Made by a program: the position numbers and the translations under genes
Notes under the pieces: generated by a model
What the model was told of the DNA's origin: nothing
Databases searched by the model: none
Seen by the model: the letters and a program-made list of their open reading frames with translations, nothing else
Origin: Phycisphaerae bacterium RAS2
GTDB lineage: Bacteria > Planctomycetota > Phycisphaerae > UBA1845 > UTPLA1
DNA: 64,000 bases
Direction of reading: 5' to 3'
Assembly (NCBI GenBank): GCA_007753915.1
Contig: CP036352.1
Span: forward strand, 3,597,306 to 3,661,305
Shown here: positions 42,541 to 47,161 of the stretch, piece after piece
How positions within the stretch are numbered: the stretch's first letter is position 1
Layout of the letters: each line of letters starts with the position of its first letter

Positions 42541-43074
42541 GGTTCTGTCCTCAATCTGTGGCATGAGGCATTGCCCACCAAGGTTACTGTTTCGCCTTGC
42601 TGGTCCGCTGCTCCCTGTCGCCGTTGCGTGGGCACCGCCCATCAATGTTGCTGCTTCGCCTTGCCGGTCCGCTGTTTCCTGTCGCCGTAGGGTGGGCACC
42701 GCCCACCATCGACTGCTTCGAGCGACTTCTTCTGACCGGTCGGCCGCTCCTTAAGCAGCGTCGCGTCGCGGCGACACGCCGCAGCCATCTACCCATCCCA
42801 CCATCTCTAATCCGCCCCTGGGCCGCCGAATCTCTCACTTTGAGATTTGAGATTTCAAATTGCGTGAAGTTCGAGATACCCGGTCGGCCCAAATTCCGGC
42901 AGCCAGACGCTTCCCGATCAGTCGGACAATTGGCATAACTATCTGCAAATAATAATTTTATGCGCTATCACTGTGTTTCGGGACCATGCTCAAAAAATCG
43001 CTCCCCTCGTGGGGTATCATGGATTGGCACTTCTTACGTCTTCTTACGGGGGTTGCCACCGCCTTGGAACGATC
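42541..43074. other. Divergent intergenic region: tandem repeats and sigma-gene leader
   Basis: Holds the tandem repeat described separately (42566-42715) and a less GC-rich end with TTGGCA at 42930-42935 and TAATTT at 42953-42958, a 17-base-spaced but weak promoter candidate for the ECF sigma gene. No coding gene is supported. Confidence 0.5.
42566..42715. repeat. Tandem 64-bp repeat built on a REP-like palindrome
   Basis: Two full units (42587-42650 and 42651-42714) and a partial unit before them share CTG(T/C)TTCGCCTTGC(T/C)GGTC, then CCTGTCGCCGT and a palindrome such as GGTGGGCACCGCCCACC (42691-42707). It is the leader of the large LamG gene on the minus strand. The palindrome resembles the element at 38313-38336. 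Confidence 0.6.
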
Positions 43075-43674
43075 ATGGCCCTGTCCACGCGCACATCCAC
43101 ATCCCTGCTGATCGGCCTTTCCGAAGCTGAGAACGACGCCGTCTGGTCCGAGTTCGACGCGCGGTATCGACCGATCGTCACGGGATACTGCCTGAAGCTC
43201 GGTCTCACCGAGCACGAAGCGGCGGACGTCGCCCAGGAATCGCTGATGCGCTTTCTGGAGGAGTACCGCGCCGGGAAGTACGACCGCGAGCGAGGCCGGC
43301 TCCGCTCGTGGCTGATCGGGATCGTCAAGTATCGCGTGGCCGACCTGAAGCGCGCGAAGTTCGCCCGACGCGAGCTGCGCGGGGAGTCAGCCGTCATCGA
43401 TCTGCCGAACGATGACCAGCTCGATGCGCTGTGGGAGGCCGAGCGCTGCCATCAGTTGCTGCGCCAGGCGATCGGAGAGCTGCGCGGCGCATCGCGCCTG
43501 ACGGAGCGCACCGTGCGCGCCTTCGAAATGTTCGCCGTGGAGCAGAAGCCCGCGGCGACTGTCGCAGCGGAACTGGGCATCACGGTGCAGGACGTGTACG
43601 TCGCGAAGAACCGCGTCGCCGCGCGGCTGCGCGAGACCATCGAGCGCCTCGAAGCGCTCTTCGACGACCGGTGA
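43075..43674 (+). CDS. ECF-type RNA polymerase sigma factor
   Basis: A 199-residue sigma-70-family factor with the planctomycete-type N-terminus: SLLIGLSEAENDAVWSEFDARYRPIVTGYCLKLGLTEHEAADVAQE-like region 2 (given here only in outline; key pieces ARYRPIV, EAADVAQES, RLRSWLIGIVKYRV) and region 4 with a helix-turn-helix (TVAAELGITVQDVYVAKNRV). It directs RNA polymerase to a specific promoter set. The start ATG 43075 follows the family's usual first residues. The kinase gene begins four bases after its stop, so both are co-transcribed; the kinase N-terminus looks like a zinc-type anti-sigma domain, suggesting that the two proteins interact. Confidence 0.88.
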   Translation: MALSTRTSTSLLIGLSEAENDAVWSEFDARYRPIVTGYCLKLGLTEHEAADVAQESLMRFLEEYRAGKYDRERGRLRSWLIGIVKYRVADLKRAKFARRELRGESAVIDLPNDDQLDALWEAERCHQLLRQAIGELRGASRLTERTVRAFEMFAVEQKPAATVAAELGITVQDVYVAKNRVAARLRETIERLEALFDDR

Positions 43675-43678
43675 ACCG

Positions 43679-46600
43679 ATGGGCGAAACGCGCGCCGATG
43701 CAACGACTTCCTGCCCCGACCTCGCCGCGCTGGAAGAGTGGGTGCTGGGCGGCGAGTCCGATTCCGCGCTGGGTCGCCATGTCGAGACCTGCCGGCGATG
43801 CCGCGATTGTGTCAGCGAATTCCGCGCCAACAATCAACTCATCGCCCGCTTCGCCAGGCCCGGCGCGAACGATTCGCCACCCGCGACGACCATCTGGTCT
43901 TCCGTCGAACCGGCCGATCTGATCCTCGGCTACACCCTGGGGCCGGAGCTTCATCGCGGCGGGCAGGGCATCGTCTACGAGGCCGTGCAGAAGTCCACCA
44001 AGCGCCGCGTCGCCCTCAAGATGCTTCGCCCGGGCGCGCTCTCGACCGACAAGCAACGCCGCCGATTCGAGCGCGAAATCGAGCTCGTCGCCGGCATGCG
44101 TCACCCGCACATCGTTACCGTTTACGAGAGCGGTGACACCGCCGACGGTCGCCGCTACTTCGCCATGGAGCTGATTCGTGGCCAGCCGCTGAACGAAGCA
44201 TGGCAGCGGCGCCAAGACCCCGCATCGATCCGGCGACTCCTCGCGCTGTTCATTCAGATCTGCGACGCCGTGCAGTACGCGCACCAGCGCGGCATCATTC
44301 ACCGCGACCTCAAACCCGCGAACATTCTCGTCGATGAGACCGGCGCGCCGCACATCCTCGACTTCGGCGTCGCCAAGGCCCTCGGCGACGACCTGCACGA
44401 GGGGTTGCTCGCTACGCGCGCCGGCGAGTTCATGGGCACCTTCGCCTACGCCGCACCGGAACAGGTCGAAGGCCGCATCGACCAGATCGACACGCGTACC
44501 GACGTCTACGCGCTCGGTGTCCTGCTGTACGAAGCCCTTACCGGCGCGCTGCCCAGCGATGTCGATCGCCCACTCTCCGATGCCATTCGTGCCATCACGC
44601 ACGAGCCGCCGCGCCCGCCCTCGCAGCGAAACCCCGCGCTGGGCGACGAACTCGACACGATCGTATTGAAGACGCTTGAAAAAGATCGCGGCCGACGCTA
44701 CCAGTCCGCCGAATCCCTCCGACAAGACCTGGAGCGTTTCCTCCGCAACGAGCCGATCGACGCACGACGCGACAGCACCTGGTACGTCATGCGAAAGTCA
44801 CTCCTGCGTCACCGCGTCTCCGCGACCGTCGGAGCGGCCTTTCTCCTGCTCATCGTCGCCTTCGCCATTGTCACGGCCGTCAACCTGCGTCGCACCGCCT
44901 TCCAGCGCGACAAGGCCCTGCGCGCGGAAGACGCTGCGCGAAACTCTGCCGACCAGCTCGCCGTCGCGCTCTCACAAAGCAACATCGAACGAGGCCGCCT
45001 GATGGTGCGCACCGGCAACATCGCCTCGGCCGAAGATGTCCTCTGGCGGGAATTCCTCGCGCCGGGCGATTCCTCGTCCGCCGGCCTCGATTCCATCTCC
45101 GCATCCGTGCGCGCCGATCCGAATTCGTTCGACCTTCGCGATGCCTATTGGGCCTTGCGCGAGGCATACGTCGCAGGTCACTGCCGCGCGACCGTCGCTG
45201 CCGCCGACGACGAGATTCGCATGTCGCTCGCCGTTTCCCCCGCCGGCGATGCCTTTGCCACGGCCGGACAATACGGCAGCGTCCAGGTCTGGACGTTGCC
45301 TCTCTCCCCGACCGGCGAGCGGTTACGGCTGAAGGTGGACCCGGTGTACGCGGCTTCGTTCTGCGGTCCTGATCGTCTCGTGCTGCTTACCGCGCGAGAC
45401 AATTATGTCGCGCTCTGCCTGCTGGATGTCCGTTCCGGCCGGCTTGACACGATTGAGCCGCCGATTGCCGCACGGTCCGACCTGCGGCCCGGCGCCGTCA
45501 TTGCGAGCTTCAGCCACGATGGCCGGCGCGTCGCCATGCTGGACGGGCACGGTTTGGCGAGGATCTACGAGACTAGCAGCGGCACTCTGGTGGGCAACGT
45601 TCCCTACAACGCCGTCGGGCAAGTCACGGTCTTTGCCCTTAGCCCGACCGGCGATCAACTGGCGTTGGGCGGTCTGGATCATTTGATTCGCATCCATGAC
45701 GTGGCGCGCGGCGTGGAGACTCGGCGCATTCGAACGAGCCCCCCGAATCCCTTCCGATACATCGCCGCCATGAGTTTCAATGCCGATGCAACCCAGCTCG
45801 CGGTCGGTTGGGGCGAAGGCGGCGTGGAAGTGTGGGACCTTGTCTCGGGAGCGAGGGTCGCGAACCTGCGCGAACACACCTATGGCGTCACAACCGTCGG
45901 ATTCTCGCCCGATGGTCGACAGCTGATCACGGGTGGACACGACAAATCACTGATCATCTGGGAGCTGGCATCCAACCAGCGGTTGATGACATGCCTCGGT
46001 CACCGATCGACCGTGCTCCAAGCGGCTTTCGCCGCGGACCGAAGCACACTTCTCTCCGTCGGGCTGGATGGCCTCATCAAGGAGTGGGACACGCAACCCG
46101 TGCCGAGCATTCAACGCCTTGCCGGCCACGACGCCGCGTCGTTCGGCGTGCAGTTCAGTCGCGACGGCGGTCTCATCGCATCGGCCGGCGCGGGCCCGGA
46201 CAATCGCGTTCGCGTTTGGAACAGCCGGACCTTGGCGCGAACCACGTCGGCGGAAAAGCACCGCGAAGCCATCGGCGGCATCGCGCAGCTGGGGTCGCTC
46301 GGTGCGATGGCATCGGTGGGCTACGACGGCGAAATGCGCGTCTGGGACGTACGGCCTGCCGGGGATGGCCCGCCGCGACTCACCCTGCGACGCACGATCG
46401 GCACGGGTATCAAGGTGCCTTCATTTGTCACCGCAAGCCCCGACGGGAAATGGGTTGCATCCGGCGGGTATGAGAATCGAGTCTCCATCTGGAGGACCGC
46501 CGATCTCTTGCAAGACGCGCCGCGCCCCCCGTCGCCCGTCCATTCAATCCACGGGCCGTCCCACCGCACGCCTTGCGCCGCGTTCAGCCATGACGGCCGC

Positions 46601-47161
46601 CTGCTCGCCGCCGCGAGCACCGACGGCACGATTCGTATCATCGAAACCCAATCCGGCAACATCATTTCTACATTTATCGCGCACGAAGGGACGGTGCGCT
46701 GGGCGCGCTTCCTCGGCGTTGACAACCGGCTCGCAACCTGCGGCGATGACGGCCGGGCAAGACTCTGGGACGTGAACGCGCTGGCGACTCGCGCTGGCGG
46801 CCGATCGGCCGACTCGTCCGTCGCCGTGCCAGAGCCCGAATTCATCCGCGAGTTTGTCGGACACGAGCACGCCATCCTTGCCCTGGATGTCAGCTCCGAT
46901 GAACGCGTACTCGCCACCGGCGCGCGCGACGGGTCAATCCGACTCTGGTCGATCGCCGACGGCCGCTCGCTGACCACCCTCGAAGGTCAACGTCAGGCCG
47001 TGTATTCGATCGCCTTCTCGCCGGACGGCCGCACGCTCGCAGCGGTCGGCGAGGATCGTGACGTTCTTCTCATTGATTTGAAGTACTACGACCGACACCT
47101 CGCGGGCAACCGCGCCCATCAACTCGCGACGCTGGGTGATGCCCGACCAAACCGCGAATAA
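43679..47161 (+). CDS. Ser/Thr protein kinase with N-terminal anti-sigma-like zinc finger and WD40 repeats
   Basis: A 1160-residue membrane protein. Residues 1-55 carry an anti-sigma-type zinc motif H34-x3-C38-x2-C41 with C12 and C44 near. Residues about 85-355 are a Hanks-type kinase with glycine loop LHRGGQGIVYEAV, VALK (K114), HRDLKPAN (catalytic D210), DFGVAK (D228), GTFAYAAPEQ and RTDVYALGVLLYE, all intact. A transmembrane helix follows at about 381-402 (VSATVGAAFLLLIVAFAIVTAV). The extracytoplasmic part, residues about 500-1150, holds about ten WD40-type repeats (VSPAGDAFATAGQYGSVQVW, FSPDGRQLITGGHDKSLIIW). It is expected to phosphorylate the adjacent ECF sigma factor or others, with the propeller as sensor. 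Its last 43 bases overlap the MFS gene end on the other strand. Confidence 0.9.
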   Translation: MGETRADATTSCPDLAALEEWVLGGESDSALGRHVETCRRCRDCVSEFRANNQLIARFARPGANDSPPATTIWSSVEPADLILGYTLGPELHRGGQGIVYEAVQKSTKRRVALKMLRPGALSTDKQRRRFEREIELVAGMRHPHIVTVYESGDTADGRRYFAMELIRGQPLNEAWQRRQDPASIRRLLALFIQICDAVQYAHQRGIIHRDLKPANILVDETGAPHILDFGVAKALGDDLHEGLLATRAGEFMGTFAYAAPEQVEGRIDQIDTRTDVYALGVLLYEALTGALPSDVDRPLSDAIRAITHEPPRPPSQRNPALGDELDTIVLKTLEKDRGRRYQSAESLRQDLERFLRNEPIDARRDSTWYVMRKSLLRHRVSATVGAAFLLLIVAFAIVTAVNLRRTAFQRDKALRAEDAARNSADQLAVALSQSNIERGRLMVRTGNIASAEDVLWREFLAPGDSSSAGLDSISASVRADPNSFDLRDAYWALREAYVAGHCRATVAAADDEIRMSLAVSPAGDAFATAGQYGSVQVWTLPLSPTGERLRLKVDPVYAASFCGPDRLVLLTARDNYVALCLLDVRSGRLDTIEPPIAARSDLRPGAVIASFSHDGRRVAMLDGHGLARIYETSSGTLVGNVPYNAVGQVTVFALSPTGDQLALGGLDHLIRIHDVARGVETRRIRTSPPNPFRYIAAMSFNADATQLAVGWGEGGVEVWDLVSGARVANLREHTYGVTTVGFSPDGRQLITGGHDKSLIIWELASNQRLMTCLGHRSTVLQAAFAADRSTLLSVGLDGLIKEWDTQPVPSIQRLAGHDAASFGVQFSRDGGLIASAGAGPDNRVRVWNSRTLARTTSAEKHREAIGGIAQLGSLGAMASVGYDGEMRVWDVRPAGDGPPRLTLRRTIGTGIKVPSFVTASPDGKWVASGGYENRVSIWRTADLLQDAPRPPSPVHSIHGPSHRTPCAAFSHDGRLLAAASTDGTIRIIETQSGNIISTFIAHEGTVRWARFLGVDNRLATCGDDGRARLWDVNALATRAGGRSADSSVAVPEPEFIREFVGHEHAILALDVSSDERVLATGARDGSIRLWSIADGRSLTTLEGQRQAVYSIAFSPDGRTLAAVGEDRDVLLIDLKYYDRHLAGNRAHQLATLGDARPNRE

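Follow-up and report, generated by a model that had tools for sequence, protein, structure and literature searches.

An ECF sigma factor gene beside a receptor Ser/Thr kinase with a probable N-terminal anti-sigma-type domain in Phycisphaerae bacterium RAS2

Introduction

Extracytoplasmic function (ECF) sigma factors regulated by Ser/Thr protein kinases (STPK) include ECF43 EcfP/PknT, EcfK/PknS, and the planctomycete groups ECF59, ECF61, ECF62, and ECF217. The kinase-activated factors of ECF43 lack the acidic DAED residues; the other STPK-linked groups keep a DAED-like motif, may work differently, and need characterization (PMC8999054). In class I anti-sigma domains (ASDI), the zinc motif spans helix 2 and helix 3, and class I anti-sigma factors reach sigma region 2 (sigma2) via a fourth helix (PMC7406223). 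Here we describe a sigma factor gene and an adjacent receptor kinase gene in a 64,000-nucleotide stretch of Phycisphaerae bacterium RAS2 (CP036352.1, positions 3,597,306 to 3,661,305; the window). The kinase appears to carry its own zinc-binding anti-sigma (ZAS) domain. The reading that we favor, with a probability of roughly two-thirds (0.66), is that the receptor kinase would capture the sigma factor through this domain and drive its release or activation on a signal.

Results

The sigma gene and the kinase gene

The pair comprises the following features, given in window positions.

43075..43674, + strand: ECF-type sigma factor gene, 199 aa (P0001); open reading frame (ORF), Pfam and NCBIfam matches, family alignment
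43675..43678, + strand: four-base spacer from sigma gene to kinase gene, probable operon; sequence, kinase downstream in 176/192 distinct sigma loci
43679..47161, + strand: receptor Ser/Thr kinase gene, 1160 aa (P0002), in the order ZAS, kinase, membrane helix, WD40; ORF and domains
43712..43855, + strand: N-terminal ZAS/zf-HC2-like three-helix zinc domain, residues 12-59; conservation, anti-sigma profile matches, AlphaFold model, fold search
43937..44722, + strand: Hanks-type kinase domain, residues 87-348, catalytic residues intact; Pfam PF00069, E 8e-47
44816..44887, + strand: single membrane helix, residues ~380-403, flanked by basic residues toward the kinase; sequence, long helix 384-444 in the model
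45182..47077, + strand: predicted external WD40 region, residues 502-1133, 14 blades modelled; Pfam WD40, AlphaFold strands

P0001 matches Sigma70_r2 (Pfam, E 9e-9) and sigma70-ECF (NCBIfam, E 1.5e-12); it has a T7-S8-T9-x-LL motif at its N terminus and E48-A-A-D51 as its region 2.2 motif. The initial annotation had placed the two genes four bases apart and had given the kinase an N-terminal HxxxCxxC motif, an intact catalytic core, and one membrane helix, all of which agree with what we find. The motif is present as H34VETC38RRC41, with a further Cys at position 12 (C12-x21-H34-x3-C38-x2-C41). K114, HRD (208-210), and DFG (228-230) are intact and near-invariant among relatives, with K114, D210, and D228 invariant. 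The "about ten" WD40 repeats noted earlier proved to be an undercount, since the AlphaFold model has 56 strands in this part, corresponding to 14 blades or two seven-bladed propellers. That full-length model used 7 sequences and had a mean predicted local distance difference test score (pLDDT) of 76. A helical stretch lies between the membrane helix and the blades. Membrane topology and kinase activity are predicted from the families to which P0002 belongs.

The N-terminal segment resembles class I anti-sigma domains

Taken alone, the N terminus of the window's kinase gave no Pfam zinc-finger or NCBIfam anti-sigma match, being too divergent and below threshold, and the assignment of a zinc domain thus rests on the family profile. 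Pfam zf-HC2 was matched by 18 of 47 family representatives, and the NCBIfam models antisigma, RsrA, and ChrR by 13, 12, and 6 of them. When a profile of these 47 ZAS sequences was compared with 177,635 PDB sequences, the top three matches were RsiW (E 1e-4), RslA (2e-4), and DdvA (3e-3), all of them anti-sigma factors. The AlphaFold model of the segment has helices at residues 15-23, 29-37, and 39-59 (pLDDT 92-97), followed by disorder. H34 sits in the second of these and C41 in the third, so that the motif lies across helices 2 and 3, as in class I anti-sigma domains. Foldseek returned ChrR (TMq 0.49-0.53) and RslA (0.42) as the top matches, with E-values that were weak (2.8-4.8) for a domain of this small size; the comparison with RslA gave a VIA Z of 4.7. 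The earlier suggestion that the zinc segment is of anti-sigma type is supported by the profile matches, the fold, the place of the gene, and the coevolution of the segment with the sigma factor. Very probably, then, this receptor kinase has a domain of the ZAS/ASDI type at its N terminus that binds the sigma factor.

The zinc motif is widespread among sigma-linked kinases

Relatives of the sigma factor were found in 17/17 genomes of the window's family and, in a sample of its class, in 136/397 genomes at E<=1e-30. Matches were rarer outside the class: in a 294-genome phylum sample, 17 genomes matched at E<=1e-40, 10 of them from other classes. The named relatives are Phycisphaerae, Phycisphaerales, and other Planctomycetota metagenome-assembled genomes. 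A search for related loci with the window's single sigma sequence yielded no confirmed locus.

We analyzed 192 distinct sigma loci with their neighborhoods, removing a few redundant records for the pair analyses; in 176 of the loci, the next gene downstream encodes a kinase. A zinc motif that is not conserved in homologues had been named as refuting the initial annotation; to the contrary, HxxxCxxC precedes the kinase domain in 145 of these 176 kinases. An extra upstream Cys, most often 22 or 25 residues ahead of the motif His, is present in 143/176. The complete four-ligand pattern (C..HxxxCxxC) was thus observed in 143/176, compared to a mean of 0.42 in shuffled N termini. Among the 31 linked kinases free of the zinc motif, 18 retain a match to the ZAS profile (E<0.01; shuffles, 0/620), indicating that the ZAS fold outlives zinc. 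The sensor part varies among relatives, being either WD40 or tetratricopeptide repeats (TPR); the ZAS-kinase-membrane helix arrangement is constant. Adjacent ZAS kinases also occur outside the class, in four cases (L324-L327).

The variable occurrence of zinc ligands bears on a redox or metal switch, in which oxidation of the Cys cluster would free the sigma factor, as in RsrA or ChrR, with the kinase as a second input. The ligand pattern does fit domains of the RsrA/ChrR type. However, homologous domains without zinc ligands occupy the same position, and the large external sensor offers an alternative input; such a switch seems very improbable here. In other anti-sigma groups, zinc is thought to be structural (PMC7406223).

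Two further kinds of N terminus were seen. In L082, L153, L262, L263, and L265, zinc-less N termini appear to hold two tandem ZAS-like helical units. The sigma-linked, ZAS-free kinases L010/L128 (RAS2 genome), L073, L075, L078, and L081 have other short N-terminal motifs in common, either a W[YF]-rich stretch followed by L-E-L helices or GFGLDLPDxxWLxR; these are possibly alternative sigma-docking peptides.

ZAS kinases within the RAS2 genome

The ZAS motif is found in 5/24 kinases of the RAS2 genome. A sigma gene is nearby for 4/5 of these, compared to 3/19 of the other kinases (hypergeometric P ~0.015, calculated by hand). The four are the window pair, L140 (adjacent), L131 (sigma gene downstream), and L133/L009 (sigma gene 0.7 kb upstream); the fifth ZAS kinase, L139, lacks a neighboring sigma gene. 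At L131 (~2977 kb), the order is reversed: the ZAS-kinase gene comes first, and a sigma gene from a different subfamily overlaps its 3' end. At L011 (~1213.9 kb), a stand-alone ZAS ORF of 103 codons follows and overlaps a related sigma gene, and there is no kinase in the region covered. This is possibly an unfused form of the sigma/ZAS pair.

ZAS divergence follows the sigma factor

Rank correlations (Spearman) of pairwise distances were calculated over 139 sigma/kinase pairs. They were 0.535 for ZAS and sigma, 0.391 for sigma and kinase, and 0.201 for ZAS and kinase. The partial correlation of ZAS with kinase given sigma was -0.01, and that of ZAS with sigma given kinase was 0.506. In 60% subsamples, the ZAS-sigma correlation ranged from 0.449 to 0.605 and exceeded the ZAS-kinase correlation every time; for remote pairs only, the two values were 0.466 and 0.065. 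If ZAS served the kinase, its divergence would be expected to follow the kinase domain. It does not, which points to the sigma factor as the partner. The zinc finger might otherwise assist the kinase in dimerization or autoregulation, or bind an unrelated partner, with the neighboring sigma gene incidental. L139, a ZAS kinase lacking such a neighbor, fits that idea; the partial correlations speak against it, as does the excess of sigma genes near ZAS kinases in the RAS2 genome, and we find it the hardest of the alternatives to credit.

The ZAS-sigma correlation is concentrated in helix 3. At the residue level, mean-field direct coupling analysis (mfDCA) and average-product-corrected mutual information (MI-APC) gave identical top three sigma-ZAS pairs: N179-N51, I189-L54, and C125-R57 in window numbering. 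ZAS positions 51, 54, and 57 are about one helical turn apart on one helix face, and their partners in sigma region 4 (sigma4) are 179, 189, and 125. The mean of the top 10 mutual information scores was 0.216, above the maximum of 0.189 in a null made by permutation within sigma clusters. With mfDCA, sigma-ZAS pairs were overall not enriched among the top couplings, the top three alone being striking.

The sigma factors keep their acidic motif

The acidic motif is EAAD in the window's sigma factor; among 139 sequences, DAAD occurs in 56, DAED in 20, and DASD in 5, and there is no general replacement by Ser or Thr. An ECF43-like phosphoswitch at the DAED position, with uncharged residues and a phosphorylatable Thr in place of the acidic ones, is unsupported, the acidic ends being mostly kept. 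Since they are, the charge switch of ECF43 is not an obvious mechanism here, and it is more plausible that a bound partner inhibits the sigma factor beforehand. The invariant Thr7 was considered as a kinase-specific phospho-acceptor and rejected, as relatives that lack a linked kinase have it too; no clear phosphorylated residue thus stands out.

These observations bear on a serious rival to capture. The ZAS domain may only recruit a substrate: the sigma factor would be inactive, or poorly active, alone, and phosphorylation would activate it as in ECF43 EcfP/PknT, with no inhibition involved. Phosphorylation can activate kinase-linked ECF factors (PMC8999054), a sigma2-binding helix 4 is not evident in ZAS, and some relatives do without the zinc ligands, all of which would suit a docking role. 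Yet the motif whose loss inactivates ECF43 is largely kept in these sigma factors, the lack of a clear phospho-acceptor is awkward for it, and at L011 a related sigma factor has a stand-alone ZAS partner and no kinase. We consider docking alone unlikely, if considerably less so than a redox switch.

The region upstream of the sigma gene

About 68 bases 5' of the sigma ATG (43007-43073) are near-identical in a congeneric genome (L042), and the sequence farther upstream diverges. A conserved promoter or leader could account for this, as could a longer sigma factor whose N terminus is extended in frame from a GTG start near 43009. Two tandem 64-base repeats, 83% identical, lie at 42567-42694, between the sigma gene and a divergent neighbor gene. 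No significant promoter motif common to the sigma upstream regions was found: the best 4+4 dyad occurred in 8/82 sequences, and shuffles gave up to 7.

Discussion

We imagine a kinase that spans the membrane as a signal receptor and keeps hold of its cognate ECF sigma factor. The cytoplasmic ZAS domain would bind the sigma factor, with helix 3, in our reading, packing on sigma region 4; this would tether the sigma factor to the membrane and probably mask it. Binding of a ligand to the WD40 propellers outside the cell membrane would then activate the kinase, which might phosphorylate the captive sigma factor, the ZAS-kinase interface, or both, so that the sigma factor is released or activated. 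The all-in-one sensor, anti-sigma factor, and kinase of the initial annotation holds up in part: profile, fold, gene position, and coevolution place a sensor, a sigma-binding domain, and a kinase in one protein.

Several points weigh against capture as we envision it. There are 16/192 sigma loci without an adjacent kinase, and for ~13/176 linked kinases, such as L010 in the RAS2 genome, the N termini are unrelated or the ZAS domain went undetected. Low correlation between ZAS and kinase could come partly from recombination of the two segments. In whole-domain correlations, sigma4 was not preferred over sigma2 as the target of ZAS. Given this and an effective number of sequences (Neff) of ~116 for residue-level covariation, the sigma4 interface is best treated as a hypothesis and the residue contacts as tentative. 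Finally, no fourth helix is predicted and no conserved pattern is seen past helix 3 in the ZAS segment, where a helix might take shape only upon binding; with no evident helix 4, sequestration of the sigma factor may be weak.

More tentatively, at somewhat less than even odds for the joint proposal, these loci may represent a hybrid third mode of ECF control, in which one receptor captures the sigma factor and phosphorylates either it or its own anti-sigma domain for release, and this mode may be frequent in the window's class (the named relatives being Phycisphaerae) and present elsewhere in Planctomycetota. If so, inhibitor, kinase, and sensor would be one molecule. Anti-sigma capture and kinase activation are generally regarded as alternative principles, and a fusion of ZAS and kinase bridges the two. 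For the large set of planctomycete STPK-linked ECF factors, a kinase with its own anti-sigma-type domain offers an answer that is concrete and can be tested. Residues of ZAS helix 3 may set partner specificity.

The fusion is apparently undescribed so far. We found no description of it in the literature searched, which covers STPK-linked ECF factors, anti-sigma domains, and WD40/TPR kinases separately; the main ECF classification paper and its supplements lie outside that search, and the fusion may therefore have been noticed there earlier. The word "zinc" is absent from the main text of the study of planctomycete membrane kinases with C-terminal WD40/TPR arrays (PMC11032199).

Like the WD40/TPR kinases of that study, P0002 has the order kinase, membrane helix, and periplasmic repeat region; unlike them, it has an added N-terminal ZAS domain and a neighboring ECF sigma gene. 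With the STPK-regulated ECF factors, this locus has in common an ECF gene beside a receptor Ser/Thr kinase and a planctomycete setting. The kinase here differs in bearing its own anti-sigma-type domain, and the sigma factor retains acidic, DAED-like residues where ECF43 has STTA. The closest likeness of the domain itself is to the ZAS/ASDI proteins (ChrR, RsrA, RslA, RsiW; zf-HC2), with which it shares Hx3Cx2C across helices 2 and 3, the upstream Cys, a three-helix bundle, a position encoded directly 3' of the ECF gene, and coevolution with the sigma factor. It departs from them in having no evident sigma2-contacting helix 4 and in its fusion to a Hanks kinase that carries a WD40 or TPR sensor on the outside.

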